Assembly: GCA_031276235.1 (NCBI GenBank) | Contig: JAISNL010000182.1 | Coordinates: 1 to 36,642 of the forward strand | Source of the DNA: Prevotellaceae bacterium | GTDB lineage: Bacteria > Bacteroidota > Bacteroidia > Bacteroidales > UBA932 | Direction of reading: 5' to 3' | Length of the DNA stretch: 36,642 nt | Shown: one piece after another, positions 4,553 to 35,236 of the stretch | Position numbering within the stretch: the first letter of the stretch is position 1 | Layout: every line of letters starts with the position of its first letter | Made by a program: the position numbers and the translations under genes | Notes under the pieces: generated by a model | What the model saw: only the letters and a program-made list of their open reading frames with translations | The model's database searches: none | Told to the model about the DNA's origin: nothing

Positions 4553-6214
4553 CTACTGTACAATACTTATTACCGGACTCGTGCCGTCTGCTGCGCCTAC
4601 AATACGCGATGTTCCTGTATTGGGTGCGGCTAATGTTCCTCCTTGCGCCCTCCAGTTTGCCATGCAACGAAATCTGAATTGTACATCTCCGCTTATAATC
4701 GGGTTTGTAAATGTATATGTAGAATTGACCTGCACGTTAGTACTGCCATCTGCATTCATCGCATGAGTGTATGTAACTTCTCCCAATCCCGAAACGTTTT
4801 CTATTGTTGTTTGTCCTACAACTTTCCATTCATTTCCGTCATAACATTCAAGCATCCAATATTTATGACCTGTTGCAGATGTTCGCGTCAAATATTTTAT
4901 ATTTATTTTGATACCGGGACGTAAATTTGTAACAGGAACTTTGAATAACCAGTAATCGCCGGGCCAGCCGCCGTTAATATACGGATGTCCTGTTGTTCCT
5001 ATTATTCTTACTCCTACATTAGCGTTATTCGGGAAATCGGCTAAACCGCCTTCAGGCATATAACTTATTGTGCTTATACCTGTTGCCGTAGCAGAGCCTG
5101 TTCCCGATTTAAGAGCGTTAGAATTTACAAATTGAGAAATATATGTACCAGCATTGTAATGATCAGCAGAAAATTCCCATTCTACGGGAGTTTCAAAGCC
5201 TGTCAGTTCTCCTAATTCATCCTGATTAACGGTAACTGTAAATGTAAACCTGACAGGATCGACAGGCGATGAAATTGTAACCGTTCCTGCGCGAATTGTT
5301 CCCGTTGTATTTTCATCGATAGCAAGTACAACTGCAGTTTCAGTTGTTGATGATATATTAATCCAACTGTCATTTGAAACTGCTGTCCACGGAATATTTG
5401 CATCTACAGGACAGTTTATTATTTTACTTGATTTTGATGTTCCGAATAATAAAACAGGAACTTTCAAATAACTTCCTGCTTCTTGATGAACAACAATTTC
5501 GCGTCTGATATTAGGATTTTCAGTATTAAAAAATGTTACTGTTGCAGACCTGTCAGTATCGCTTATGTTTTTTTGCGCTGCAATATGAACGCTATCTCCT
5601 TCTACCCGCGTGGCAGTTAGCCAGTCGATATCAGAATTTTCGTCGCCATCTTCACCGCTTCCTGTATTATCGCCTGCAGTTACATCCCACTGCACATTTG
5701 ATTTTACAAACATATAAAATGTTTGATCGTTAACACCCTCTATATTAACGATATCTTTAGATTCTTTTGCTCCCTGTTCGTTTCTTACGGTAACTGTAAT
5801 ATAAGGTTCGTTGGCTTTTTGAGTAAGGGTTATCCAAACCGGCTGTTCTGCGCCTCCCGCAATAATTTTGAAATATGCCATGCGTTGTGTCAGAGCATCG
5901 TTTGCCTTTGCTATAATTCTGAACAAACCTTCATCTTTTCCTCTGTCCGGAAATGCTTGACACCAGTCGTATTCCTCAACAGGAATAATTTGCCATTCGC
6001 CGATTGCACGTACAGTATAATAACTATATGGAGATGAACTGTTATATGCCGTATGTTCTATTATTAAATTTGAATAGTCTTCTTCGATATAGAAGTATGG
6101 CTGTTCGGCTTTCACATCATCCGATTCGCACGATGTAAATACGGTTGCTGATACAAATAAAATTGCAATCAGCAGTATATTGACTTTTTGTGTTAATAAA
6201 TTAATCTGTTTCAT
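4553..6214 (-). CDS. BACON-domain surface lipoprotein
   Basis: A 553-residue lipoprotein; the lipobox VFTSC puts the lipidated cysteine at residue 29. Three Ig-like beta-sandwich units of BACON type follow (about 37-150, 155-250, 250-335), marked by the recurring end pattern of the family (WITLTQKAN, EIVVHQEAGSY, FTVTVNQDE) and by the W-aromatic segments DWCQAF, DWLTAT and SWINIS. Residues 340-553 form a separate strand-rich domain that looks like a jelly-roll ligand-binding module. BACON proteins usually accompany SusC/SusD systems and bind glycans or mucin, or act as spacers holding an enzyme off the surface. It is the last gene of the operon, nine bases after the phosphoesterase-GDPD stop. 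No catalytic motif is visible; ligand unknown. Confidence 0.8.
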   Translation of the reverse strand: MKQINLLTQKVNILLIAILFVSATVFTSCESDDVKAEQPYFYIEEDYSNLIIEHTAYNSSSPYSYYTVRAIGEWQIIPVEEYDWCQAFPDRGKDEGLFRIIAKANDALTQRMAYFKIIAGGAEQPVWITLTQKANEPYITVTVRNEQGAKESKDIVNIEGVNDQTFYMFVKSNVQWDVTAGDNTGSGEDGDENSDIDWLTATRVEGDSVHIAAQKNISDTDRSATVTFFNTENPNIRREIVVHQEAGSYLKVPVLLFGTSKSSKIINCPVDANIPWTAVSNDSWINISSTTETAVVLAIDENTTGTIRAGTVTISSPVDPVRFTFTVTVNQDELGELTGFETPVEWEFSADHYNAGTYISQFVNSNALKSGTGSATATGISTISYMPEGGLADFPNNANVGVRIIGTTGHPYINGGWPGDYWLFKVPVTNLRPGIKINIKYLTRTSATGHKYWMLECYDGNEWKVVGQTTIENVSGLGEVTYTHAMNADGSTNVQVNSTYTFTNPIISGDVQFRFRCMANWRAQGGTLAAPNTGTSRIVGAADGTSPVISIVQ

Positions 6215-6223
6215 AGTATTTTT

Positions 6224-8455
6224 TCAATATTTTCTGATTTTTTCTAAAACAATGTCAGGATAATTACTTATAATTGCATCTACTTTGAAGTTTATCATTT
6301 TTTCGATATCTTCAGGTTTATCCACTGTCCATACTACAATCTTCATCCCCGATTGCTTGCATTTTCTAATAAGACTTTCATTAACAAGATTAAAATTGGG
6401 GCTGTAATATGCGGGAATGAAATTCAGTTTTGCTATATTTTCTTCAAAATTATCATTTCCGGCTTCTACGTTATATGACAGTTTCAGGTCGGGATATTTT
6501 TTGTTCAAATAATTCAAAGCGCGTGTATCGAAACTTTGAACTATAAGCCTGTTGCCGATATTTTTTGACAGCAAAACTTCCATAACCAAGTCGCAAAATT
6601 CTTCGTATGCGGGAGAAAAAACATTATCTTTACCTGTTGCCGATTTTATTTCGATATTATAAAATATCGGCGAAAGTTTGTTCCTTTCTGTATAATTTTC
6701 AACGGAATCAATCAAATCGGCAACAAGCGGAATATGGGTTTTTATTTTCTTTTGGTTAGGAAAATCAGGATGAGGTTTAAGCCCTGTTTCGTATTTTGCA
6801 ATTGAATCGTATGTCATTGAATAAAGATTATAGTTTTTTGTTTCATTTTTTGCGATTTCCTTTCCGTCTGGACGGGTTACAAACGTATAATTCATCCACG
6901 GGTCATGCGATACAATAACTTTCCTGTCTTTTGAAATATTCAAATCAATCTCGACAGTATTTACTCCCAAATTAATTGCGTTAATCATTGCTTCAACAGT
7001 ATTTTCAGGCATTATGCCTGTTCCGCCTCTGTGAGCCTGCACGTCTGGCGCATAATCAAGTTTTAAAGAGTCGGTAAAAACATTCCCGAAATTATCTTTT
7101 GCTATTACTGTTATTTGTCTGGCATCTTTGTCAGGATTGGCTGCAAAATACCAGAATGTGCGCAAGTCATCGTCAATCATATTTTTAGATCTGTTATTGT
7201 TTTTTGCTTTCAGTTCACGGAAAAAATTAGGCGAAGCATCATAAACCCTGTCAATATTTATTTTTTTACCATCCTGATAACATTCTACCTGCCATTTTTC
7301 ATTCCAGTCCCAAACTGCTGCAATAACACTGTTTGGATGATATTTAGACATGCCCCTGTTGAATATTTCCATCTGATAATTCATTGGCTTGTTTATTGAT
7401 TTGTAATACCATGAAAATTTTTTTCCAGCAGATTCAAAAATTTTATATCCGCGGGGACTACCATCGTTATTGTGATTTCCAATCCACAAAGCGCCATTCG
7501 GAGCGGCAATATTATGTTCAAAAAAATCAGGTTTTATTTCAATATTATGATTTCTGTGCATGTGTCCAGATAAGATATTAACCTTATAATCCCTGCAAAT
7601 TTCCAGCAGTTTTTCGCCGTTTTTCATGGTTTTGTTTTTTGTGTCTTTCCATCTCACAAACGGAGCATGCATTGCAACAATAAGGTGAGAACCTTTCGGA
7701 ACGTAAGCAAGATATTTTTCCAGCCATTCTAATTGATTTTGCGTTATTGACGTCTGATAATCTTTTCTGGTACTGTAAATAATATTGTCCAATACTATAA
7801 AATAATCGTTACCCATGTTGAAAGCATAGTAAGTCGGACCGAATGCTTCGCGATAGTTCGCAGCAGATGCATGATCACCTTTTATATTTTGATTGTGATC
7901 ATGATTTCCTATAACGGGATAAATCGGGATTTGAGCCGTTGAATTGAGTTTTTTCATTGGTTCAAACAGTTCAAGTGCATCCCACACAATATCGCCGAGC
8001 ATAATTCCTGCCAATGTTGTATTGGCGTTTTTACGATATTCATCAATAGTATTTTTTATATCCGGGAATATCAGTGTTTTATATTCATCAAAATGCTCGG
8101 ATTTTGGTTGCGGGTCTGCAATTGCTACAAGCGTATATGTTTCGGTATTTCCCCATTTTATCAAATCAAAATCGTATTTTTTGATTTCAGGATTAAATTT
8201 TTTATAAAAAACGGGAGCGCCGCCATCAAATGATGCCACATAACCGCTTGGAGTTATTATATATATAAAATCGGCTACGGAATCGACATCAAGTATAAAA
8301 TGTCCTTTTTTGTCGGTTTTGGCAAAATTTTTACCATCCGTAACAACAACATTTTCGATGTTTGTTTTGCCTGATTTTACAACTCCTGATACTTGCTGCG
8401 AATACACATTTGCAACAAATACAATTAATAATAATACAGTTACAATTTTTTTCAT
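6224..8455 (-). CDS. Exported metallophosphoesterase fused to glycerophosphodiester phosphodiesterase
   Basis: A 743-residue protein with a cleavable signal peptide (1-19). Domains in order: a carboxypeptidase-like beta domain (about 21-100); a calcineurin-like metallophosphoesterase (about 105-310) with DPQ at 114-116, GD at 154-155, GNHD at 183-186, H263 and GHMH at 297-300; a C-terminal beta domain (about 360-468); and a GDPD domain (about 472-743) with HRG at 475-477, PEN at 483-485, E502/D504 and HD at 517-518. All GDPD metal and catalytic residues are present. The first metallophosphoesterase motif has Gln instead of His, as in some CPPED1-like enzymes. The product could cut both a phosphodiester and the resulting monoester in the periplasm or at the surface. 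It follows susD in the operon. Substrate unknown. Confidence 0.88.
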   Translation of the reverse strand: MKKIVTVLLLIVFVANVYSQQVSGVVKSGKTNIENVVVTDGKNFAKTDKKGHFILDVDSVADFIYIITPSGYVASFDGGAPVFYKKFNPEIKKYDFDLIKWGNTETYTLVAIADPQPKSEHFDEYKTLIFPDIKNTIDEYRKNANTTLAGIMLGDIVWDALELFEPMKKLNSTAQIPIYPVIGNHDHNQNIKGDHASAANYREAFGPTYYAFNMGNDYFIVLDNIIYSTRKDYQTSITQNQLEWLEKYLAYVPKGSHLIVAMHAPFVRWKDTKNKTMKNGEKLLEICRDYKVNILSGHMHRNHNIEIKPDFFEHNIAAPNGALWIGNHNNDGSPRGYKIFESAGKKFSWYYKSINKPMNYQMEIFNRGMSKYHPNSVIAAVWDWNEKWQVECYQDGKKINIDRVYDASPNFFRELKAKNNNRSKNMIDDDLRTFWYFAANPDKDARQITVIAKDNFGNVFTDSLKLDYAPDVQAHRGGTGIMPENTVEAMINAINLGVNTVEIDLNISKDRKVIVSHDPWMNYTFVTRPDGKEIAKNETKNYNLYSMTYDSIAKYETGLKPHPDFPNQKKIKTHIPLVADLIDSVENYTERNKLSPIFYNIEIKSATGKDNVFSPAYEEFCDLVMEVLLSKNIGNRLIVQSFDTRALNYLNKKYPDLKLSYNVEAGNDNFEENIAKLNFIPAYYSPNFNLVNESLIRKCKQSGMKIVVWTVDKPEDIEKMINFKVDAIISNYPDIVLEKIRKY

Positions 8456-8491
8456 ATTTTTTTATTGTTAAAATTAAAAATTAATTTATTT

Positions 8492-10033
8492 TTACCAGTT
8501 TCCTGTTATAGATTTCAAACTCCACCATACAGGCGTTTTCATATTATTTTCACCACCCATTCGCTGTAATGCTTCGTGTGCATTTGCCGAATTTGTTGCC
8601 ATTGTTGTATTGGGGTAAGCAAAACGGGTAGGAAGAATATGATCGTTCAGAGTACCTGTGCCGATAACTAAATCAGGATAGCCTGTGCGACGATATTCGT
8701 GCCATGCTTCCATACCTGTCCAAAACAGCGCAAGGTATTTTTGACAGGCAATAAGTTTTTCAAGTTCGGCATCATTTTTTGCAATATCAAATGCTACTTC
8801 GGGATGCGCAAGATACACAGTAATATCGGCATCGGTAATTGTATAAGGAACAGTCATATATGCTCCGTAAGACGACCATTTTTGTAATGATGCCTTAATG
8901 GCATTGTCGTAATAACTTTTTGCTGCGGTTCTGCCTCCGCTGATAAGCCCTTTGAGTGCCGCTTCAGCAAATATAAACTGCACTTCTGCATAATCCATAA
9001 AAGTATAATCTCCATCGTTGCGAACAAATACTTCAAAATTCAATCTTGCTACTCCTGACGTTTTTCTTTCGGATATAGGACAGCCGGCAACCGCTCCTTT
9101 CCATCCTCCCGGTTTCATAACGCCATAAACGGGAAGACGGGGGTCAGTATAAGTTCCCTCATCAAAAACAGTCATTTTTATAATTTGTTCCGTAAGATGG
9201 CGTCCTCCAGATGTAAAGGAAGGTTCGTCGAAATCATTTCTGTTGAAATAATACAAAAATGGAGTTGCGCCCGAAAATACGCATTTGGCATTATCGTCAT
9301 TCGATTCAAAAACAGGGTAAGCAGACGGATTATCCAAAATTTCCTGTATTTTTGCTCCTGCATTCATTTCGTTTCGTCCGCTTACACGCATAAGCAGGCG
9401 AAGGTAGAGGGAATTGTTGAATTTGCGCCATTTTGCAGTATTTGCCCCATACATAATGTCGAGTGGAGATGTAAAATTCAGGCTGCTTGACTGATAAAGC
9501 GTATTTGCTTCTTCGAGTTCGGCAAACATTTGCTCAAATACTTCTTTTTGCGAATCAAATTTGGGTCGAATAAGCCCTATATTGCCTTTAAATGCTTCGG
9601 AATATGGAATATCTCCAAACATTTCGGTCAGTTCAGCAAGGTAAAATACCTTCAATGTATGTCCCAACGCTTTGAAAATGTCGTCGTTTTCTTCTTCTGC
9701 AAGCTGAAGCATGTGGTTTGCATTATTCGCATACTTTGAATAGAAATTCCAACGATTTGCCCAGTTTCCATCTGCTATGCTGTAAATATTTTCGTTACGG
9801 GTTGTTCCTCCTGCAAATGTGGTATATTGAATCAGTTCTCCGTTCCAGAACCATGTTGTATATGCCCAGTCGTTAGCGCCTCCGACAAGTATGGGGACAA
9901 ACATGTCGGCAGGTCTCGCATTACCCACATTAAATGTATTGGGATTTTCATTGGTATTTAGAAAATCTTCGGTACATGCTACAAAACAAAGTGTTGCAGC
10001 AATAATTAGTAATATTTTTTTGATTTTTTTCAT
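8492..10033 (-). CDS. SusD/RagB-like nutrient-binding lipoprotein
   Basis: An outer-membrane lipoprotein of the SusD-like_2 type that caps the SusC channel and binds ligand. I start it at the ATG at 10031-10033: the resulting signal peptide KKIKKILLIIAATLCFVAC ends in a lipobox. The longer start at 10063 would put ten residues before it and overlap the end of susC. Family marks are EDFLNTNENPNTF near the N-terminus, the TPR-like LKVFYLAELTEMFGDIPYSEA segment and the C-terminal WTGMEAWHEYRRTGYPDL. It lies directly after susC, with a 10-base gap from this start, and before the phosphoesterase-GDPD fusion. Length (513 residues) is normal. Ligand cannot be read from the sequence. Confidence 0.92.
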   Translation of the reverse strand: MKKIKKILLIIAATLCFVACTEDFLNTNENPNTFNVGNARPADMFVPILVGGANDWAYTTWFWNGELIQYTTFAGGTTRNENIYSIADGNWANRWNFYSKYANNANHMLQLAEEENDDIFKALGHTLKVFYLAELTEMFGDIPYSEAFKGNIGLIRPKFDSQKEVFEQMFAELEEANTLYQSSSLNFTSPLDIMYGANTAKWRKFNNSLYLRLLMRVSGRNEMNAGAKIQEILDNPSAYPVFESNDDNAKCVFSGATPFLYYFNRNDFDEPSFTSGGRHLTEQIIKMTVFDEGTYTDPRLPVYGVMKPGGWKGAVAGCPISERKTSGVARLNFEVFVRNDGDYTFMDYAEVQFIFAEAALKGLISGGRTAAKSYYDNAIKASLQKWSSYGAYMTVPYTITDADITVYLAHPEVAFDIAKNDAELEKLIACQKYLALFWTGMEAWHEYRRTGYPDLVIGTGTLNDHILPTRFAYPNTTMATNSANAHEALQRMGGENNMKTPVWWSLKSITGNW

Positions 10034-10043
10034 AATAAATATT

Positions 10044-13000
10044 TTAGAATTGAAGTTTAACATTAATGCCGTAAGTACGGGTCATTGGAAAAGTCATAGG
10101 CTCTATGCCTTTTATGATATTAGTGCCGTTCACAACGGCAGTTTCGGGGTCGTATTGGGGAAAATCGGTTATGCAGAAAATATTTGTAGCAAATATACCA
10201 ACGTTTGCACTTTGAAGAATTTTAAGTTTTTTACACAATTTTTGAGGTATGACATAATCCAGACGCAGTTCCTTGAATTTGAAATAAGATGTGCTGAATG
10301 TATTTTCGCGCGTATTGTCGCGAATCCACTTGTAATTTGCATAATAATCACGTGCATCGGCTATAGTCGTATTTTTTTTGTACGATACGCTTCCATCGGG
10401 ATTTTTTATTGCGTTAACTCCTTCAATCGCCAGACCGTCATAACGACCTTCAATAGAATTTTTAAGTTTACCCGTATAACTCAAAGCAAAATTTGTTACC
10501 GAATAGCAGTTCCCGCCTTTTTGCCATGCAAATGTCATGCCGAGAATGAAATCCTTATATCTGAATCTTTGGGTCATTCCCGCTTTCCAGTCAGGATTTA
10601 CTTTTGCTATTCTGGAAGTCGGGCTTTGGTCTAAAACAGGATTACCCGTACTTTCTGTTATAAGTTTCATGCCCGAACAATCAATACGATTCCCGTTTTC
10701 ATCAACATAATATGAATTTTCTGGCGCTCTCTGGTAATCGCGTCCGTAAATCCAGTAATCGCCTTCGCCTATGTATGAATAAATATAAGTACGGCTGCCT
10801 ATTGTAGTTGATGTCGGTGCCTGATACGGCTGGGCAGGAGCCCAGTCATCCGTCATTTTTTTAATGACAAAATTATTTTTCGACCAGTTTGCATTGATAC
10901 TCCATGTAAAATCTTTTGTCTTTACAGGTGTATATGCTGCTTCAATTTCAATACCTTTGTTCACAACTTCTCCTATATTTATAACCATACTTGTAGAGCC
11001 TGTAACCTGGTCAACAGGCGTTGAATATATTTGATCGGTTGTTGATGTATAATAATATGAAACATTTAAATCAATACGGTTTGACAGTAATTTTGTTTCG
11101 ATGCCTACTTCATAATTTTCTATATTTTCGGGCTTTATCAGTAGATTTTTTCTTGAGCCGGGTAATTGATAACCGCCGGGAAATGCTGTTGAGGAATACT
11201 GATCTTCAAGGTTAAACGGATCTGTTGCATTGCCGACATTAGCCCATGCTAAACGTAATTTGAGAAAATTAATCGCAGGGAATTTTTCTTGAAAATCGAA
11301 TACATTATTCAACAATACGCTTGCCGTAACCGAAGGATAAAAATATGACCAGTTATCCACATACAAGGTACTCGACCAGTCGTTACGACCTGTTATGTCG
11401 AGAAAATATGTATCAGCCCAGCTTAATGATACCAGCCCGAATATACTGTTTTTCTTTTCCTTGCTTCGGAAAGGCGTAATTGTGGCGGGAGATTCGGGCG
11501 TATCATTATTCAGTGAATACCAGCCATTCTGGTTAAGCCCGTTAACTACGCCTTTTGTGGTAAAATATTTATTTGCGAAGTGAATACCTCCAATGTATGC
11601 GTTTACGTCAAGTTTGTCGCCTATAAATTTCCCCCCGTACCTGAACATGAAATCAAGGTTAAAATCGAAATCCCTGATTGTTTGCTCGCTGTAATAGCCG
11701 TTTAAATATGAAATAGTGAATTTAGGTCTGATTTTTTGCCTGAATTCATTGCCTATATCGGTGGCGCCTTTTAATTCAAGTTCAAGTCCTTTGGCAAGTT
11801 TTATAATGAGCCTTGCATTTGCTGTAATACGGTCTCTGTCCACAGGATTAATCGCCTCGTATAAAGTTTGATATGGATTCCACGAATCGGAAGTTACAGG
11901 ATAAACCAAAGAACTGTTTTTCAAGTTTGTTTCGGTATATCGCCCATTGAAATATTCCGCTTTCCATGCTTTGTTTATATCATTAACGTTGTATCCCCAA
12001 GCCAACTGATACATAACGCATGATTCATCGTAACCGCTTATTGGTATATTATCGGAATAACGACGCGTATAAGTAATCCTTGTATCCAAAGTAATGTATT
12101 TGTTTAATTCCTGCTGCATGTTTGCCGCAAAAACCTGATGAACAGTGTTGGTATTGGGCATTATCCAGTCGGTACGGGTATCCGTGAATGAGAACCGTCC
12201 CATAAAACCGTTCCCGTTGTTACCGTCTATGGAAATATTGTTTTTCAAAGTAACGCCTGTTTGAAACAGTCCTGTGTACCAGTTATCGGCATATACAAAG
12301 GGAAGTTTTGTATAGGTATCGTTTTCCCAGTCGCGCGATGCGTAAAGATAACGCATCTTTTTAGGGTCAAATTTTTCACCCCAAGCCCCACGAGATGTAG
12401 AATTACGGCTGGCGGCTATTCCATCCATGGCTTTATCGGCAGGAACAGTCCAGAAGCAATAGGGATTTACAGCATCGCTACTTGGTCCGTATTCTGTCTG
12501 GAAATCTGGCCACCAACCTGCTTGTTCAAACGAAACGGAAGAGTTGATGGTTACTCCTATTCCTTTTTTCATGCGTCCTTTTTTGGTAGTGATAATAATA
12601 GCGCCGTTAGAAGCAAGAGAACCGTAAAGAGCAGAAGCTGCAGCTCCTTTCAATACAGTAGCGCTTTCAATGTCTTCGGGATTAATATCGTTCATTCCGT
12701 TGCCGAAGTCAACAGAAACATCCGCATTTGCATAATTTGCCCCGCTGCCGCTTGCTGTAGGTCTTGCACTTGCAATAATTCCATCTATAACATACAGCAC
12801 ATTGTTCTTTGAATGGTTCAAAGAATTCTCACCACGCAGAATAACGCGGCGACTGCCCATTGGTCCTGTATTTCCTGACTGTATTTCCAAACCTGCAACC
12901 TTGCCTGCCATGGCATCAATCCAGTTGTTTTCTACTGCCTGAGTCAGTTCTTCTCCATTGAATTTTGTTACAGCATAGCCAAGTGATTTTTTTTCGCGGG

Positions 13001-13337
13001 TAATGCCCATAGCAGTTACTACCGATTCGTTTATCTGCTCTGCATCGGATTCCATTGTAACATTTACCACGCTTTGCCTGCCAGAGGCAATTTCCACGGT
13101 TTTGTATCCGAGAAACTGAAAAATCAAAACCGCATCATCAGGAACATTTCGCAGCGTATATTTTCCATCCATATCGGAAGATGCTCCAATATTCGCATTT
13201 CCCTTTACCGAAATATAAGCTCCGGGTAAGCCGGTTGCGCCATCGCTGTCGTAAATGACGCCTGTAACAACATTTTGCGCAGTTGCCACTGTCGCCAGAC
13301 AAAGTAAAATAATAAACGTTGTAAATAATTTTTTCAT
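10044..13337 (-). CDS. SusC/RagA TonB-linked outer-membrane transporter
   Basis: A roughly 1,097-residue TonB-dependent transporter. The preferred start is ATG 13335-13337, giving signal peptide KKLFTTFIILLCLATVATAQ; ATGs at 13340 and 13355 would add residues. It has the carboxypeptidase-like domain (VVTGVIYDSDGATGLPGAYI), the TonB-box/plug region (SVVTAMGITREKKSLGYAV, then GLEIQSGNTGPMGSRRVIL), the DIESATVLKGAAASALYGS motif that marks SusC proteins, and a long beta-barrel ending in NVKLQF with the terminal Phe needed for outer-membrane insertion. It would import an oligomer too large for porins, energised by TonB, together with the downstream SusD. It lies 36 bases after the first phosphoesterase. 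No frameshift is seen. Confidence 0.95.
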   Translation of the reverse strand: MKKLFTTFIILLCLATVATAQNVVTGVIYDSDGATGLPGAYISVKGNANIGASSDMDGKYTLRNVPDDAVLIFQFLGYKTVEIASGRQSVVNVTMESDAEQINESVVTAMGITREKKSLGYAVTKFNGEELTQAVENNWIDAMAGKVAGLEIQSGNTGPMGSRRVILRGENSLNHSKNNVLYVIDGIIASARPTASGSGANYANADVSVDFGNGMNDINPEDIESATVLKGAAASALYGSLASNGAIIITTKKGRMKKGIGVTINSSVSFEQAGWWPDFQTEYGPSSDAVNPYCFWTVPADKAMDGIAASRNSTSRGAWGEKFDPKKMRYLYASRDWENDTYTKLPFVYADNWYTGLFQTGVTLKNNISIDGNNGNGFMGRFSFTDTRTDWIMPNTNTVHQVFAANMQQELNKYITLDTRITYTRRYSDNIPISGYDESCVMYQLAWGYNVNDINKAWKAEYFNGRYTETNLKNSSLVYPVTSDSWNPYQTLYEAINPVDRDRITANARLIIKLAKGLELELKGATDIGNEFRQKIRPKFTISYLNGYYSEQTIRDFDFNLDFMFRYGGKFIGDKLDVNAYIGGIHFANKYFTTKGVVNGLNQNGWYSLNNDTPESPATITPFRSKEKKNSIFGLVSLSWADTYFLDITGRNDWSSTLYVDNWSYFYPSVTASVLLNNVFDFQEKFPAINFLKLRLAWANVGNATDPFNLEDQYSSTAFPGGYQLPGSRKNLLIKPENIENYEVGIETKLLSNRIDLNVSYYYTSTTDQIYSTPVDQVTGSTSMVINIGEVVNKGIEIEAAYTPVKTKDFTWSINANWSKNNFVIKKMTDDWAPAQPYQAPTSTTIGSRTYIYSYIGEGDYWIYGRDYQRAPENSYYVDENGNRIDCSGMKLITESTGNPVLDQSPTSRIAKVNPDWKAGMTQRFRYKDFILGMTFAWQKGGNCYSVTNFALSYTGKLKNSIEGRYDGLAIEGVNAIKNPDGSVSYKKNTTIADARDYYANYKWIRDNTRENTFSTSYFKFKELRLDYVIPQKLCKKLKILQSANVGIFATNIFCITDFPQYDPETAVVNGTNIIKGIEPMTFPMTRTYGINVKLQF

Positions 13338-13373
13338 CATTAAAAATTTTGTCATATAAATATTTTTTAGAAT

Positions 13374-15341
13374 TTATTGCATTGAGGTTGAAAATTCTTT
13401 GGGTCTCGTCATAGTTTCGGTATATTCGTTCCCAAATCCATCCGTTACTTTTATATTTATTGTTGATTCGGGGCTGGATGCCTGCACGCGAAACATGTGA
13501 GTAGTGGTGTTCGTTACGAATGCACTTGTAGGCGCTTGTTGTCCCACTTCAAAACGTTTGGCTTCGTAAGAGATAATGTGCAAAGGGTCTTTTGTACTTA
13601 TGCGTGTTACTGGCAACACGGTTTCGCCTTCTTTTACTTCAATATTCCAGTTTGGGTCGTAATTCCAGATATTTATAAGGATATAATTGTCGGCGCTTTG
13701 ATTTTTATATTCGCCCGCATAAGTATTTTCAAACAAAATTTTATGTGTATCCGAAGCATGTGGAGTATATTTTTCGGCAGTTATATGTATTGTATTCCTG
13801 TCATAAGTGCGGAACTGTTTTTCTTTGGGATAACCAATACTTTTGTAATACCATTTAATATTGCGTCCTGATATTTCGTAAACGCCATAGCCGCCGGGTT
13901 CTCCATCTTTACAGATATGATTTCCGGCATATCCGTTTTTGCCTGTCCACCACCATGTAGCGCAGACAGCGCCGGTATTGTGTTCAAAGGTGTTGCCATC
14001 TGACACATTGTAATTCAAATGAGTATGTCCGGTAAGGTAATGTACGGTTGAGAATTCGGAGAAACAGTTTTTAAGTTCCGTTCCATTTTGCAGAGATATT
14101 GAATGTGTCTGGTTTTCACCGCTTATATTCACACTGTACAACGGACAATGCATTGCCACTATAACAGGCGCTGTTTTGTCGGTAACTGTTGCAAGGTCTT
14201 TCTTAAGCCATTCTATCTGGGCTGTAACAACTTTTTGGTTATAATTTCTATCGCCTATAATGCCAATTGAGCCGCCTTCATTAATATATTCAACATTATC
14301 AAGGACAACATAATGGATTTCGCCTATATTAAACGAATAATACGTAGGTCCGGCAACCGTTTTGTAAGTTTTTTCGGCAAGCCAGTCGTTTGCAAAATAA
14401 GGATCGTTATCGTGATTACCTATTGTGTTAAACAGCGGGCATCCAATACTTTTTATTGCATTTATGTATTCTGGTAAAGCATAACTGTTTTGATACCAGT
14501 AAAGTTCCCAACTCATATCGCCAAGCGTGATGCCGTAAATTTTTCTGTTCAATATGCTGTACTGAGCGCACATAGCCTTTGTTTCTGCAAGAAAATTAAG
14601 TTCAAACTGGCTTATGTCGTTGTTGCGGTTTGCCAAATGCAAATCAGCCATAGCCAAAACAGTATATTCGCTCTGGTCTGACTGCACAAGGCTAAAATCC
14701 TTTTGCTCTACAGCGGTTTGCGGTTGTGTTAAGTAGGCAAAAAACTGTACCATCCCGTTTTTAACAGGCGCTTCGTATCCTGAAGGCACGGAAATAAATA
14801 CATAACCGTTTTCCTTTGCTGACGACAAGTAATAAATGCCGTTTTCATCTGTAACCGTTACATCGAATCCATCTGAAACAACTACATCTGCTACACCTTC
14901 GCTACCACAATACACAACGCCTTTAATGTTTTTGCCTGCAACGTCTGGAATACTCAAATTTGCAATAATTACAATATTCAAATAACTGAGCGACTCTGAA
15001 ATATCTCCGCGAGTTACCGAAAAAGCGTAAAGCCCCGTATTTAATTCCGCAGGAACGATAAATGTAACAGAATTATCACTAACGGCAGTAACAGTAATAG
15101 TATAAACCGTACCGTCATTTGCCTTTAAGTCGAGAATATCGCCCATTTCAAAGCCATTGCCTTTGACTGTTACTTCTGCTCCTCTGTAAGTTTCAATCAA
15201 AGGAGGAATTATAACTCCGGTGATATTCAGAGTACTTAATTTTAAAGGTTCTTTTTCCTTTTCGCAACTCATAAATCCAACCGAAACAGCAATGGCAATT
15301 ATGACCATCGCAATACATGATTTTAATTTTAGTCTTTTCAT
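13374..15341 (-). CDS. Calcineurin-like phosphoesterase lipoprotein (IPT/TIG plus MetallophosN/C)
   Basis: A 655-residue lipoprotein; I use the ATG at 15339-15341, which gives a normal signal peptide ending in GFMSC, lipidated at Cys26. Domains: an IPT/TIG-like Ig domain (about 35-125), a carboxypeptidase-like MetallophosN domain (about 137-215), a calcineurin-like phosphoesterase (about 225-450) and a MetallophosC beta domain to the end. Counting from the upstream in-frame Met at 15353 (subtract 4 for the start used here), the metal ligands are DLH 237-239, GDM 278-280, GNHD 312-315, H402 and GHTH 442-445, all present. It should remove phosphate from an external or periplasmic ligand. It is the first gene of the Sus-like operon; the IPT domain may hold it on the cell surface. 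Substrate unknown. Confidence 0.88.
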   Translation of the reverse strand: MKRLKLKSCIAMVIIAIAVSVGFMSCEKEKEPLKLSTLNITGVIIPPLIETYRGAEVTVKGNGFEMGDILDLKANDGTVYTITVTAVSDNSVTFIVPAELNTGLYAFSVTRGDISESLSYLNIVIIANLSIPDVAGKNIKGVVYCGSEGVADVVVSDGFDVTVTDENGIYYLSSAKENGYVFISVPSGYEAPVKNGMVQFFAYLTQPQTAVEQKDFSLVQSDQSEYTVLAMADLHLANRNNDISQFELNFLAETKAMCAQYSILNRKIYGITLGDMSWELYWYQNSYALPEYINAIKSIGCPLFNTIGNHDNDPYFANDWLAEKTYKTVAGPTYYSFNIGEIHYVVLDNVEYINEGGSIGIIGDRNYNQKVVTAQIEWLKKDLATVTDKTAPVIVAMHCPLYSVNISGENQTHSISLQNGTELKNCFSEFSTVHYLTGHTHLNYNVSDGNTFEHNTGAVCATWWWTGKNGYAGNHICKDGEPGGYGVYEISGRNIKWYYKSIGYPKEKQFRTYDRNTIHITAEKYTPHASDTHKILFENTYAGEYKNQSADNYILINIWNYDPNWNIEVKEGETVLPVTRISTKDPLHIISYEAKRFEVGQQAPTSAFVTNTTTHMFRVQASSPESTINIKVTDGFGNEYTETMTRPKEFSTSMQ

Positions 15342-15381
15342 CGTTTTTATCATTCGTTTACTTATATAAAAAAAATTTTCG

Positions 15382-15389
15382 CAAAAATA
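15382..15389 (-). promoter_or_regulatory. Promoter -7 box for the Sus-like operon
   Basis: On the minus strand TATTTTTG fits TAnnTTTG and lies 40 bases before the start codon at 15341. The upstream TTTG box is not clear. No binding site for a hybrid two-component or anti-sigma system is recognisable, and neither regulator type is encoded in the window. Confidence 0.4.
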
Positions 15390-15735
15390 AATTAATAATT
15401 ATTTGCATTTTGTATTGTTATATCATTGTAATTGATATTTCATTATTTCGTTACAGAGCCAGCGGAAGACGATGCACACGATACTGTGAAAATGACAGAC
15501 TTAAACTGCAGCACAGGCTGACCATTTGCATTGGCAGAATTATTATTAATGTACTTTAATAAATAATATTCAGAAACCTTTGCAAGGCGAAAACAGTGTC
15601 GGGTACATGTGCCGAGCATTGGTAGAATACAGTAAAAATGCGCACAATCAACATGATAATTTCTGTTTTTTTGCGGTTGCTTGTGGCTGCATACATTGTA
15701 TTAGGCTGCAAAAAAAAATAATTTCTGTAAACATA
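15390..15735. other. Gene-free stretch between divergent operons
   Basis: About 350 bases with no convincing gene. A short open stretch (15441-15513) could encode an acidic tail with TEPAEDDAHDTVKMTDLN, ending at TGA, but has no start or partner, and an 80-codon frame starting at 15317 looks random. No long inverted repeat or tRNA is seen. It holds the upstream parts of both promoters and probably decayed sequence. Confidence 0.4.
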
Positions 15736-15767
15736 TTTTGAAAAAAAGTTTTTTGTATGTAACTTTG
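15736..15767 (+). promoter_or_regulatory. Strong Bacteroidetes promoter for carA
   Basis: TTTTG (15736-15740) is followed after 19 bases by TAACTTTG (15760-15767), the best match to the TTTG-N19-TAnnTTTG consensus in this window. Transcription would start near 15774, leaving a leader of about 120 bases before carA that contains a short ORF and an intrinsic terminator. Confidence 0.75.
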
Positions 15768-15789
15768 CAAAGTTTTAAAATATGATTGT

Positions 15790-15897
15790 ATGAATGTCGA
15801 ACATTATAAATTACTCGATTATAATAAATCAAACGGTACAAGCGTTTGCCTGTGCCGTTTTTTTATGTTTGCAACTTTTTATCCGTATAAAAAATGA
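15790..15897 (+). CDS. Candidate 35-residue leader peptide of carA
   Basis: An ATG 16 bases after the predicted transcription start opens a frame that runs without a stop through the terminator hairpin (15831-15864) and ends at TGA 15895-15897, overlapping the carA ATG as ATGA. The peptide begins MNVEHYKLLDYNKSNG and is rich in aromatic residues in its second half. The start has no clear ribosome-binding site, which is common in this phylum. The geometry resembles the E. coli pyrBI leader, where translation through the terminator prevents its folding, and the ATGA overlap would allow translational coupling to carA. Whether it is translated is inference. Confidence 0.4.
   Translation: MNVEHYKLLDYNKSNGTSVCLCRFFMFATFYPYKK
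15831..15864 (+). terminator. Intrinsic terminator in the carA leader (attenuator candidate)
   Basis: AAACGGTACA (15831-15840) pairs completely with TGTGCCGTTT (15851-15860), with one G-T wobble, around a 10-base loop, and seven Ts follow at 15858-15864. This is a textbook intrinsic terminator, yet it lies between the promoter at 15736 and carA at 15894, with no gene ending before it except the leader ORF that reads through it. That arrangement implies premature termination as a control of carA. Confidence 0.75.
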
Positions 15898-30469: not shown

Positions 30470-31270
30470 ATGAATGTAAATGACGCAATAAAAAATTTTT
30501 TTTACAAAAACAAAGGTACAAAAATAAACAATACAACTGAATGTAAAAAACCAGAAAATAACTGTTTTTATCAAAAAAAATCAAATCACTTGACTAAAAT
30601 CACTGTATGCTGGTGTGCGTGTATTGTTATTTGCGGTTCGTTTGCATTGCAGGCGCAAACTGTTGTCAATATTGATAACGAACATAAAATTATTGACAAG
30701 CCCGACACAATCCTGCAAACAGAACAAATTTCTGTTGACACTAATATTGAAATAAACCATAAAACATGGCTACTTAAAACAAATCTTTTGTACATGTGCG
30801 CAGGAGTATTCAATTTAGCCGCAGAATATTCTTTTTCGAACAGGCTTTCTGTTGATATTCCCGTTACATATTCTCCTTACTCCATAAGCCGCACCTACAA
30901 AATACGAACATTAAGCATACAACCTGAATTGCGATGGTGGATGAAAGAACCGTTAACAGGACATTTTTTGGGATTTCACACGCATTTGGCTTTTTATAAC
31001 ATTGCGCTTGATACGTACAACCGTTATCAGGACAAAGATGGAAAAACGCCGCTCTGGGGAGCGGGATTCAGCTACGGATACGTTTTGCGCGGCAAGGGAA
31101 AATGGAATTTTGAATTTACATTAGGAATAGGCTATGCGCATTTGAATTACGATATTTTTTACAACGTAGATAACGGATCGGTTTACAACAGCAAAATCAA
31201 AAATTATTGGGGACTTACAAAAGCAGGAGTTACCGTATCTTACAGACTGACAAAAAATGATGAAAAATAA
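30470..31270 (+). CDS. DUF3575 protein, fimbrial operon
   Basis: A 266-residue exported protein. The DUF3575 domain (about residues 100-262) begins with WLLKTNLLYMCAGVFNLAAEY, then IQPELRWWMKEPLTGHFLGF and LGIGYAHLNYDIFYN: an amphipathic beta-barrel pattern ending in VSYRL, probably outer membrane. DUF3575 genes commonly start Mfa-type fimbrial operons. The signal peptide (TVCWCACIVICGSFALQAQ) begins only near residue 44, so about 40 extra lysine-rich residues precede it. A TTG at 30590 (codon 41) would give a normal signal start; the ATG at 30470 may be an artefact of the neighbouring inverted-repeat element. It overlaps the next gene by 14 bases. Confidence 0.75.
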   Translation: MNVNDAIKNFFYKNKGTKINNTTECKKPENNCFYQKKSNHLTKITVCWCACIVICGSFALQAQTVVNIDNEHKIIDKPDTILQTEQISVDTNIEINHKTWLLKTNLLYMCAGVFNLAAEYSFSNRLSVDIPVTYSPYSISRTYKIRTLSIQPELRWWMKEPLTGHFLGFHTHLAFYNIALDTYNRYQDKDGKTPLWGAGFSYGYVLRGKGKWNFEFTLGIGYAHLNYDIFYNVDNGSVYNSKIKNYWGLTKAGVTVSYRLTKNDEK

Positions 31271-32282
31271 AATACATAAAATATTATTATCCGTATGTGC
31301 ATGTCATATTTTCTTTTTGAGTTGTGATACTGTACACGAATTTCCGGATGACAATTCATCCAATCCATACATGATTGATGTAAATTTATCAATAGCAATT
31401 GACATGAACATGGATGCCGACACCATATTTCAAACTTATGCAAATATGCTTGGAGGCGACTATGACATTAGATATATAGTTGATATATATGAATCTGATC
31501 CCGACATACAGACCAGAGTTGATAACCGAATAAAAAGAATAGTAAAAACCGAAAACAGCATCATAACACAGGGAATATATAAAATACAGGAAAAATTAGC
31601 GCTTCCGCAAAAAAAATATAAAATTATGGCATGGATTGATTTTGTTGAAAAAGGAACAACAGCAGATAAATATTATACTACCGACAATCTTCAAACAATA
31701 ACCGTTATTCAGCAACCTTTGCAGCACGGATACGATGTAACCAAAGATGCATTTGCAGGAAATACGGATATGGATTTAACCGTGTACGAAAATCAACGGT
31801 TTATACATCATGATGCCGTTGTGGATGTAATGCGTCCGTTTGCTGTTTATCAGATTATAACAACAGATGTAGAAGAATACATAACTTATCATCCCGAACG
31901 TTCGTATTCATCCATTATGCCAAGCACAACAAGGCTTGTATATAATCTCTTTTTTCCGCTGGGATATAACGAATTTTTGCAAGTCCCCGACAACTTTAAA
32001 ACAGGGATAAACTATACTTTTAATATTACAGAATTAACGCCGCAGAAAGAAGCGCTGGTAGCATCCGACATCGTTTTTGTAGGAGATGACACATTCTATT
32101 CTGTAGATTTTGAAATGCTTTCGGCTGAAGATGAACATATAAATACAATACAGGGATTACACATAAATTTGAAACGAAACAAACTGACAATAATAAGAGG
32201 AGAATTTCTTACCAAAAACATTAACGATGGCTCGGTAGGAATTGACGACGATTTTGGAGATGAAATAATTATTAATTTATAA
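31257..32282 (+). CDS. FimB/Mfa2-type fimbrial anchor lipoprotein
   Basis: A 341-residue lipoprotein (lipobox FFLSC, Cys23) resembling the FimB/Mfa2 family that anchors and limits fimbriae in Bacteroidales, overlapping DUF6562-like proteins. Family-like segments are VNLSIAIDMNM, RYIVDIYE, YKIMAWIDFVEKGTTADKYY and, after the central strands, VMRPFAVYQIITTDVEEYI. The ATG at 31257 or the adjacent one at 31260 overlaps the end of the DUF3575 gene, indicating translational coupling. The product would sit on the outer membrane, with the next gene's product as fimbrial or adhesin subunit. Assignment by pattern and context. Confidence 0.75.
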   Translation: MMKNKIHKILLSVCACHIFFLSCDTVHEFPDDNSSNPYMIDVNLSIAIDMNMDADTIFQTYANMLGGDYDIRYIVDIYESDPDIQTRVDNRIKRIVKTENSIITQGIYKIQEKLALPQKKYKIMAWIDFVEKGTTADKYYTTDNLQTITVIQQPLQHGYDVTKDAFAGNTDMDLTVYENQRFIHHDAVVDVMRPFAVYQIITTDVEEYITYHPERSYSSIMPSTTRLVYNLFFPLGYNEFLQVPDNFKTGINYTFNITELTPQKEALVASDIVFVGDDTFYSVDFEMLSAEDEHINTIQGLHINLKRNKLTIIRGEFLTKNINDGSVGIDDDFGDEIIINL

Positions 32283-32326
32283 TAACACACAGATAACATT
32301 TTATTTACAAACAAAAAATTACTTAT

Positions 32327-35236
32327 ATGGTAAAAAAAATTAACTTAATTTTGGCAGCAGTAACAATGCTGGCTGCTATCTCATGCTCAAATGAAGACAT
32401 GAGTACGTACAACGAAGGAATGGTAGATTTTACAGTGAAAACATCCATCCCTCATGCTATTCAAACCTACGCTTCACATAATGGCGGCGCTACAAATGTG
32501 GATGCGAGCACTCACAATCTTCGATATATTCTCGAAGTATGGACAAAAGAAACTCCTCGCCGACTGGCTTATCGCGCCTACGAAGTTGTTGACGACAACT
32601 TTACAGGGCAAGGCGTGACTTTCAGCGCCCGTTTACTGGCTATGGAGTATGATTTTGTATTCTGGGCTGATTTTGTTGAGAACACAGTTACAAAAGCAAA
32701 TGCAGCAAGCGGCGACTATTTTTACAAAACAAACAATGGAGAAACAGCTGATGACATCAAAGCTGCCCCAACTGCCTATCCCGGTCTTAAAGAAATAGAA
32801 CTGAAGTCAGCTGATGCTTATGAGATTTCTGATGATGCCCGCGATGCATATTATGCTGTTAAATCTGTTGATTTAAGAACGCAAAGCCAGATAGGCAGCG
32901 TAACCCTGAAACGCCCGTTCGGTAAATTCCGTTTGGTGTCGCTTGATGCTGTAGATGGTTATATTGCAACGCCTCCTGCAAAAGCGAAAATCAATTATAC
33001 AACAGCATCTTTCCCATCAGGATTTAACGCTTTAACAAGTGAAGCGACATCTCCAAATCTTAATCTTACTGAGAAAAATTTGATGTCTATTGTTAAAACA
33101 GAAAATGCGGTTGTTGGAGGTGTTACATACAGCAATGCTAATATCTTAGCTGTAGATTATCTTTTTGCCGCTCCCGCACAAACGGCAGCGTTCAACGTAA
33201 CGGTTTACAACAGTACTTCTGAGCAAATAGGCTATAAAGAAATTTCCAATATTCCTGTTGTGGCAAACAAACTGACCACAATAATAGGACATTTCTTTTC
33301 AAATGCAGCAGATTATACTGTTATTGTAGATGATGAGTTTGATGATTACGAAGATGTAGATGTAACAGACGAAATAAACGGAGATATTACCGCAGATTAT
33401 ACGATTACTGTTCCTGAAAATACGACAACGCCTGTTCTTACTTACATATTTACAGGAACAATAGCTAACAATGTTACGATAAGTATATTAGATGAAAACA
33501 GCAGTAATCCATACACTGGCACAGTACAGCTATTAATTCAAAAAGATACCGAAGCATCCGTAGATATTAATCTGCCCGGAGCATCTGTAATATTCAAAGG
33601 CAAAGTTGGCTCTATGTCAGCTGTAACTTCCGACAATACGCTTACTATTGCAAAAGGAGCAAAAGTTTCAACTCTTGCGGCAAACGGCGGAAATGTGAAA
33701 ATCTACGGAACAGTAAACAGTCTGACAAAATTAAATTCCACAGATAAGATTTACCTTGCTATCGGACTTCACTCAGACAGGCTTATAAGCAATACTGTTG
33801 TAAAAGATGCTCTTGCCGTTGATTTTGCAGATGGACTTATATTTACAGAAGGCCATTATCCTTTAAATCGCAATATTTATGTAAATATTAAGGATCAAAA
33901 TTATTACATGCCTGTTACTAAAGAAGGTTATCATATAATAGGCGAAGGAAATGTAAATAATATAGTAGTTTACGGAGACGAATATACGGCAAATGCAGCG
34001 CATGGCACACAAAATCTTGTTACAGTTTTCGCACCTGATGTAACCATCGAAAATATCACATTCATGCCCAAATCAGATCCTAATAAAGTTTTGGAAGTTA
34101 TTTCTGGCGCTGATAATTTTAAGTTGTCTGGATGTAAATTTATTCCAAATATTATAAAAGGTTATGGAAACTGTGCAGGAAATATATGGGTAGATGGTAA
34201 TAATTCCGAATTAGACGGTAATACATTCACTTATGCAGGTATAACTGTACGTGAAAACAAAACAAGTACCATAACAAACAACACGTTCAATTATGGGTCA
34301 TCAAGTTGGGCAGAAAAATCATGTATTTCTGTTAGAGGAACAGCGACCGTAGAAAATAATACATTCAATGACATACGTCCGATATCTCCACTTTATACAG
34401 ACATGCCTATATTTGCTCATGTCGGGGGTACTATAAATCTTAATATAAATACATATCCGACTACTGATGAAATTTATTGGACGGCAGTAGAGGGCGGCAC
34501 AATAATCTTAAACGGAACAGAAATTTCTTATACTGATGTTGCTGATTTGCAAGATAAAATAAATGGAGGAGGTACTGTATTTTTACGCAAGGCGCAGTAT
34601 GATATTACAAATCTTGTAATAAGCAATGATGTTGTTATTTTAGGCGGCGGCGCCAAACTTTCGGCTGTATCTCCTGCCGCACAGACAGTACCTGTAAATG
34701 GCGCAAATCCTGCAATTTTCATCATAGAAGGAAACGTAACATTAAAAGGGCTTGCTATCACAACAGCAGGAACTCCTCTACACAAATCGGTAGATGGAGT
34801 TACAATATTAAATGGAACATTAACTGTTGAAGATGTAATCTTTGATGGCATTATATCAACCAATCCAACTGGAGACCAGTACGGACGCTGTATCACTGCT
34901 TATGGAAACAGTCAGTTGACCGTTACAAACAGCATATTCAAAAGATATAACAAAAATGGCATTCATTTATACGGCACAAGTGATGCTCAAATAAGCGGAT
35001 GCTCTTTTATTGGAAATAATATCCTTAATGTAAACGGACAAAACGGCATTGTATTTATGCGCAATGGCTCTAACGTAACAACAGGAAAAGTTTCTAACTG
35101 TATCTTCAAGGATATTATATATGATAGCGCAATAGCTTGCGCTGTATTGATATATGGTACAAACAGTAATGATGTAGTTGATGGCGGTGGAAATACTTAT
35201 GATAACTGTGATCGAAATTGGTATGCTGGACTATAG
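32327..35236 (+). CDS. Fimbrillin-like lipoprotein with C-terminal parallel beta-helix
   Basis: A 969-residue surface lipoprotein (LAAISC, Cys20). Residues about 22-330 are a DUF6562/fimbrillin-like domain, similar in layout to the preceding anchor protein (LRYILEVWTKE, YDFVFWADFVEN, LKRPFGKFRLVS, VVANKLTTIIGHFF). A strand-rich spacer (about 340-480) with EINGDITADYTITVPENTT follows, then right-handed parallel beta-helix repeats (about 480-969): ENITFMPKSD, FKLSGCKF, SELDGNTFTYAGI, STITNNTFNYGS, ATVENNTFNDI, LTVTNSIFKRYNKNGIHLY, AQISGCSFIGNNI. Such helices bind or cut polysaccharide, but no lyase motif is seen. Probably a long adhesin displayed by the fimbrial system. Ends before a strong terminator. 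Confidence 0.8.
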   Translation: MVKKINLILAAVTMLAAISCSNEDMSTYNEGMVDFTVKTSIPHAIQTYASHNGGATNVDASTHNLRYILEVWTKETPRRLAYRAYEVVDDNFTGQGVTFSARLLAMEYDFVFWADFVENTVTKANAASGDYFYKTNNGETADDIKAAPTAYPGLKEIELKSADAYEISDDARDAYYAVKSVDLRTQSQIGSVTLKRPFGKFRLVSLDAVDGYIATPPAKAKINYTTASFPSGFNALTSEATSPNLNLTEKNLMSIVKTENAVVGGVTYSNANILAVDYLFAAPAQTAAFNVTVYNSTSEQIGYKEISNIPVVANKLTTIIGHFFSNAADYTVIVDDEFDDYEDVDVTDEINGDITADYTITVPENTTTPVLTYIFTGTIANNVTISILDENSSNPYTGTVQLLIQKDTEASVDINLPGASVIFKGKVGSMSAVTSDNTLTIAKGAKVSTLAANGGNVKIYGTVNSLTKLNSTDKIYLAIGLHSDRLISNTVVKDALAVDFADGLIFTEGHYPLNRNIYVNIKDQNYYMPVTKEGYHIIGEGNVNNIVVYGDEYTANAAHGTQNLVTVFAPDVTIENITFMPKSDPNKVLEVISGADNFKLSGCKFIPNIIKGYGNCAGNIWVDGNNSELDGNTFTYAGITVRENKTSTITNNTFNYGSSSWAEKSCISVRGTATVENNTFNDIRPISPLYTDMPIFAHVGGTINLNINTYPTTDEIYWTAVEGGTIILNGTEISYTDVADLQDKINGGGTVFLRKAQYDITNLVISNDVVILGGGAKLSAVSPAAQTVPVNGANPAIFIIEGNVTLKGLAITTAGTPLHKSVDGVTILNGTLTVEDVIFDGIISTNPTGDQYGRCITAYGNSQLTVTNSIFKRYNKNGIHLYGTSDAQISGCSFIGNNILNVNGQNGIVFMRNGSNVTTGKVSNCIFKDIIYDSAIACAVLIYGTNSNDVVDGGGNTYDNCDRNWYAGL

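Follow-up and report, generated by a model that had tools for sequence, protein, structure and literature searches.

In Bacteroidota from the gut, the soil and the sea, few nutrient systems are as common as pairs of SusC and SusD proteins, which are routinely taken to import glycans. SusC/D-like pairs that are clustered with phosphodiesterases and phosphomonoesterases and are free of carbohydrate-active enzymes (CAZymes) have been published as PusCD, encoded by the loci PUSI and PUSII of Flavobacterium johnsoniae (PMC8115612); PUSI includes a PF00149-type enzyme, and the SusD-like proteins PusD1 and PusD2 belong to PF07980/PF14322 (PMC8115612, Table 1). Here we describe an operon on a 36,642-nucleotide stretch of a Prevotellaceae bacterium (contig JAISNL010000182.1, assembly GCA_031276235.1), the whole of which is called the window below. 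Its five genes encode, in the order of transcription, a metallophosphoesterase lipoprotein with a TIG domain (MPE-TIG), SusC, SusD, a fusion of a metallophosphoesterase with a glycerophosphodiester phosphodiesterase (MPE-GDPD) and a BACON lipoprotein. We consider it likely that the operon serves to take up and digest glycerophosphodiesters by a Sus-type route; the SusC/D machinery, whose best-known ligands are sugars, thus seems to be devoted here to a phosphodiester.

Like the PUS loci, the window operon unites SusC/D and phosphoesterases in one cluster, but its SusD belongs to PF12771 instead of PF07980/PF14322. The PUS loci have been described without Glp genes, a BACON protein or an MPE-GDPD fusion, whereas these occur in the window operon or its relatives; induction by low phosphate has been shown for PUS. 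The clade analysed below is of the already known PusCD kind but differs from it in its SusD family and its link to glycerol-3-phosphate catabolism; no account of that link turned up in the open-licence literature that we searched. Apart from PusCD and a table of an iron stimulon that lists B. theta BT4724-25/BT4727, this literature yielded no SusD tied to glycerophosphodiester, glycerophosphocholine, teichoic acid or GlpK. With classical Sus the operon shares SusC, SusD and, as predicted, a surface binding lipoprotein and surface and periplasmic hydrolases; in contrast to it, these hydrolases are phosphoesterases. No CAZyme (glycosidase, lyase) or sulfatase was detected in the operon or the flanking open reading frames scanned, so the locus lacks the CAZymes expected of a polysaccharide utilisation locus. 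The succession from GDPD to GlpT and GlpD recalls the Escherichia coli glp regulon (glpT-glpQ, glpD, glpF-glpK, glpR), and relatives of the operon carry Glp-like genes in the same cluster. E. coli relies on general porins and one soluble GlpQ, whereas a TonB-dependent SusC/D pair, a surface esterase and a binding lipoprotein would come first here, and the window's genome yielded no Glp genes.

All five open reading frames lie on the minus strand, and transcription runs from 15353 to 4553. Gene 1 (13374-15353, 659 amino acids) encodes the MPE-TIG lipoprotein with a GpdQ-like catalytic domain and PF16371/PF16370. It is followed by an adjacent susC and susD, as expected of a Sus-like uptake system: gene 2 (10044-13355, 1103 amino acids) encodes a SusC-type TonB-dependent transporter (TIGR04056, 530 bits versus a cut-off of 368, with the TIGR04057 signature) and gene 3 (8492-10063, 523 amino acids) a SusD-type surface lipoprotein (PF12771, 291 bits). 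Gene 4 (6224-8455, 743 amino acids) encodes the fusion, with PF16371, PF00149 and PF16370 followed by PF03009, and gene 5 (4553-6214, 553 amino acids) the BACON-repeat surface lipoprotein, which has three PF13004 domains, PF19190 and about 200 C-terminal amino acids without a family. The gaps from gene 1 to gene 5 measure 18, about -20 (with an alternative SusD start), 36 and 9 bases, a spacing typical of operons. An earlier note, made from the DNA letters, had described five genes in one direction with short gaps and without glycosidase, lyase or sulfatase, and the Pfam and NCBIfam assignments for minus-strand positions 4553-15353 bear this out. Of the extent that it gave, 4553-15341, the left end stands, but the first in-frame ATG of gene 1 is at 15353, 15341 being the second. 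The five-gene order that the note suggested looking for in other genomes recurs as an identical set in a same-genus genome at 74.5% DNA identity, so the operon is not a chance arrangement. DNA similarity between the window and the same-genus genome G040 is confined to 4554-15354, with none outside; the five genes hence form one unit, which lies elsewhere in the window's genome and is there without Glp genes.

Both enzymes retain the five metal-binding motifs of metallophosphoesterases (D-x-H, GD, GNHD, H, GHxH). They read ADLH, GDMSW, GNHD, MHCP and GHTH in gene 1, and ADPQ, GDIVW, GNHD, MHAP and GHMH in gene 4, where the first is D-x-Q rather than D-x-H, as in most aligned relatives. By sequence alone gene 1 yields weak matches to purple acid phosphatases. 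The best PDB match of its AlphaFold2 model (predicted local distance difference test, pLDDT, 89) is GpdQ of Enterobacter aerogenes (2dxl/2zo9; for 2dxl, E 2.7e-8 and a target template modelling (TM) score of 0.62), followed by Rv0805. GpdQ has the same metallophosphoesterase fold but is only 15% identical, and the gene 1 product is a lipoprotein with additional TIG, MetallophosN and MetallophosC domains, the TIG domain scoring 20.8 bits, just under the cut-off of 20.9. In the fusion (pLDDT 90) the metallophosphoesterase spans amino acids 24-460 and the GDPD domain amino acids 470-740. The latter is a TIM barrel with the HRG, E-x-D and SHD signatures of PF03009 (112 bits) and a complete set of motifs (HRGG, PENT, EID, SHD, EIKS). 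It matches the GDPD of Cytophaga hutchinsonii (3ch0) with a TM score of 0.94 and 41% identity, although that protein has a single domain and is not fused to a metallophosphoesterase; other GDPDs follow, including Bacillus subtilis GlpQ (5t9b). An assembly or gene-calling artefact was rejected as the origin of the fusion, which is found at full length in six genomes of the family, the window's own counted, and in Gaoshiqia sediminis. In this last species, a member of another family, the gene (L102:11663-13894) stands after MPE-TIG and not after SusD.

The signal peptides of genes 1, 3 and 5 end in a lipobox Cys. The next residues are the acidic EKEKE in gene 1, TED in gene 3 and the acidic ESDD in gene 5, and the Cys is invariant in 40 aligned relatives of gene 1 and in 24 aligned sequences of gene 3. 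In lipoproteins of Bacteroidota, acidic residues after this Cys point to surface display, which the sequences suggest for all three proteins; gene 1 is thus probably exposed on the cell surface. Because the signal peptide of gene 4 is plain and without a lipobox Cys, the fusion is probably periplasmic. The BACON lipoprotein is presumed to bind the ligand. The predicted locations would reproduce the classical Sus layout of a surface enzyme, a surface binder, SusC/D and a periplasmic enzyme.

The nature of the ligand is indicated by the genes that accompany related operons. Scanning GTDB genomes with the gene 1 alignment yielded 80 named loci, 60 of which hold a related SusC/SusD and come from Bacteroidales, Flavobacteriales and Sphingobacteriales; a scan of genome contigs with the fusion protein as sole query gave no matches. 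Strong matches to GlpD, GlpT, GlpK or GlpF are present in 34 of these 60 loci, a GDPD in 36 and a regulator of the DeoR/GlpR family in 18, with an extracytoplasmic function (ECF) sigma factor/FecR in others. As a control, we took 38 of the best SusD matches in 296 genomes drawn evenly from the phylum, the window's own excluded, and fetched their neighbours. Only 2 of the 38 loci around these nearest SusD paralogues carry Glp genes (nominal Fisher p 9e-8, or 8e-6 without loci cut by contig ends, both uncorrected for shared ancestry). The linkage does not reflect a single inherited order, since several arrangements occur: glpD-glpT upstream with a divergent DeoR/GlpR-family gene (L060, L068, L071, L126), glpD-K-F upstream with GDPD-glpT downstream (L103, L106, L131, L132, L135), divergent glpF-K-D (L081, L087, L088, L090), glpD-K-F downstream (L080, L086) or upstream (L067, L082), and divergent glpT-glpD (L069, L129, L130). 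In the examples checked, Pfam and NCBIfam bore out the family assignments: GlpK exceeded its cut-off, and a MIP channel and DAO plus DAO_C were recognised. The earlier note had postulated that the ligand bears phosphodiesters as well as phosphomonoesters, naming glycerophosphodiesters first, and it is supported by the GlpD, GlpT-like, GlpK, GlpF and extra GDPD proteins of the relatives as well as by the GpdQ fold.

Within the family, the same-genus locus L060 of G040 reads glpD, glpT-like, MPE-TIG, SusC, SusD, MPE-GDPD, BACON and an SGNH esterase, with a DeoR/GlpR-family regulator divergent from glpD. In the same-genus genome G117 a GlpT-like gene lies upstream of MPE-TIG, and other genera (G011, G090, G003) have a stand-alone metallophosphoesterase at the position of the fusion. 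The SusD proteins agree with this picture. In a tree of 94 rows, with supports from the Shimodaira-Hasegawa-like approximate likelihood ratio test (SH-aLRT), all rows with phosphoesterase neighbours fall into one clade of 72 rows (SH-aLRT 99). Six rows of the clade have no such neighbours, and none of the 22 rows outside it is linked. The window SusD belongs to this clade, in a 43-row subclade (support 100) with zero unlinked rows; it is 51-59% identical to most relatives in other families or orders and 76% within the genus. Because many rows were found via gene 1, the fair subset is that found via SusD only, in which 10 of 16 rows inside the clade and 0 of 22 outside it are linked. The glycerophosphodiester reading therefore draws on the Glp and GDPD linkage in its several arrangements, the order in L060, the SusD clade, the folds (GpdQ, 3ch0, GlpQ) and the intact motifs.

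On this basis, we propose that the GpdQ-like metallophosphoesterase would trim the ligand outside the cell, where the BACON protein would meet it as well, and that SusC/SusD would import it, energised by TonB. In the periplasm, the GDPD domain of the fusion would split the diester into sn-glycerol-3-phosphate and an alcohol, and the metallophosphoesterase domain would probably remove phosphate. In relatives, glycerol-3-phosphate might enter via the GlpT-like antiporter for oxidation by GlpD or, alternatively, might be dephosphorylated and the glycerol taken up via GlpF/GlpK. The ligand could be phospholipid head groups, for example glycerophosphocholine, or glycerol-phosphate polymers.

Several observations weigh against a system for glycerophosphodiesters. 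Protein and family queries that were positive in relatives detected no GlpT, GlpD, GlpK or GlpF in the window's assembly, which is 93% complete, although the missing ~7% could still hold them; the same-genus G040, by comparison, has GlpD and a GlpT-like protein, and G117 a GlpT-like protein. The sole glycerol-kinase-like match in the window's genome has 23% identity and is probably a different sugar kinase. GpdQ is similar to other phosphodiesterases, and Rv0805 nearly equals it as a fold match for gene 1. The GlpT-like proteins score below the TIGR00712 equivalog cut-off, and the regulator is assignable to the DeoR/GlpR family only. The loci L060-L139 were found via gene 1, and their linkage to gene 1 is thus given by construction. 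Five orthologous loci of gut Bacteroides/Phocaeicola (L064, L091, L094, L104, L113) have neither Glp genes nor a GDPD nearby. If the Glp genes of the window's organism are not hidden in the missing ~7%, this member may draw only on phosphate or the alcohol, or on products that enter another route; a gain of phosphate is possible.

The diester could, as in PUS, be mainly a source of phosphorus under phosphate limitation and PhoBR control, which we regard as possible but unlikely. PUSI, which comprises PusCD1, a PF00149 enzyme and another phosphodiesterase, is switched on by low phosphate alone (PMC8115612), and no genes for using the carbon part were found in the window's genome. However, relatives couple the system with glycerol-3-phosphate catabolism, which, combined with a DeoR/GlpR-family regulator or an ECF sigma factor/FecR, looks like carbon control, and the SusD families differ from those of PusD1 and PusD2.

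Instead of free glycerophosphodiesters, poly-glycerol-phosphate teichoic or lipoteichoic acid of gut Gram-positives might be the ligand, a reading that we find doubtful. The combination of a surface enzyme with a binding lipoprotein and SusC/D would suit oligomers, and the GDPD domain of the fusion also resembles B. subtilis GlpQ, yet GlpQ is not its closest structure and many relatives are marine or soil bacteria. GH31 accompanies the fusion gene in three relatives, with GH89 in one, and alpha-glucose and alpha-GlcNAc are frequent decorations of teichoic acids; most of the related operons, in contrast, contain no glycosidase. The regular presence of glycosidases in relatives, which the earlier note had named as the finding that would speak against its ligand, was thus not observed. 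The phospholipase C of a Sphingobacterium operon, described below, fits phospholipids. A more specific version, in which Bacteroidota possess an outer-membrane system dedicated to eating glycerol-phosphate polymers, namely Gram-positive teichoic acids, for carbon and phosphorus and the window's MPE-GDPD fusion is its periplasmic teichoic-acid hydrolase, is tentative at most and rather improbable. Finally, that this is a conventional glycan locus with glycosidases encoded elsewhere, its phosphoesterases stripping phosphate from a phosphorylated glycan as the earlier note had allowed, is very unlikely, since, even though the gene 1 family is also met next to other SusC/D types where Glp genes are absent (L107, L111, L112, L115-L117, L120) and some related loci have GH31 and GH89, the option is disfavoured by the Glp linkage, the GDPD in 36 of 60 loci and a SusD clade set apart from the loci that have no phosphoesterases.

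If the glycerophosphodiester reading is true, a SusC/D clade spanning three orders gains a non-glycan ligand predictable from sequence, and a possible recycling route emerges for the head groups of phospholipids or the wall polymers of Gram-positive bacteria. Members in Sphingobacterium, Arenibacter, Gelidibacter and Flagellimonas are in culture, which makes the role of the clade testable at once; the Glp-linked locus is present in Sphingobacterium yanglingense and Arenibacter certesii.

Some related loci vary this theme. The three with GH31 combine it with the MPE-GDPD fusion, a SusC/SusD of another family and BACON (L038:2134-19901 in G108, L040:4321-10767 in G042, L035:141-8266 in G117), and GH89 (NAGLU) lies beside GH31 in one of them. 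These glycosidases favour a glycosylated polymer there, and the loci are candidates for the use of an alpha-glycosylated glycerol-phosphate polymer. In Sphingobacterium chuzhouense, a phospholipase C (PF04185 + PF05506; L127:12176-14662) is encoded between MPE-TIG and a second metallophosphoesterase, which favours phospholipids in that operon. In five Bacteroidales loci (L063, L065, L069, L077, L139), the Glp-linked cluster contains or adjoins a gene of the sulfatase family whose C-x-P-S/T-R motif is intact, so the ligand there may include a sulfate ester. Elsewhere (L107, L111, L112, L115-L117, L120, L121), relatives of gene 1 with about 45-55% identity neighbour a different SusC/D type and no Glp genes, which would imply a second ligand. 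At the position of BACON in other orders, Sphingobacteriaceae (L103, L106, L131, L132, L135) encode a DUF5689 lipoprotein, probably a replaced ligand-binding protein. Similar secreted proteins of ~300 amino acids without a Pfam family are encoded in or beside two clusters (L035:5682-6539 and L085:8811-9779).

The operon is flanked on the left by genes for DUF2851 and a C69 peptidase and on the right by carA, DUF6261, carB and an S9 peptidase, none related to it. In the intergenic region between gene 1 and the divergent carA (15354-15893), where the operon promoter is expected, blastn and tblastn against relatives gave no significant match to glpT, glpD or regulator genes, and an upstream glpT/glpD remnant was rejected. 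Upstream of carA, at 15760-15890, a short palindrome followed by a T run looks attenuator-like by eye. Further away, two neighbouring DUF6562 proteins are encoded at 31257-35236, the second of which (969 amino acids) has a weak match to a right-handed beta-helix.

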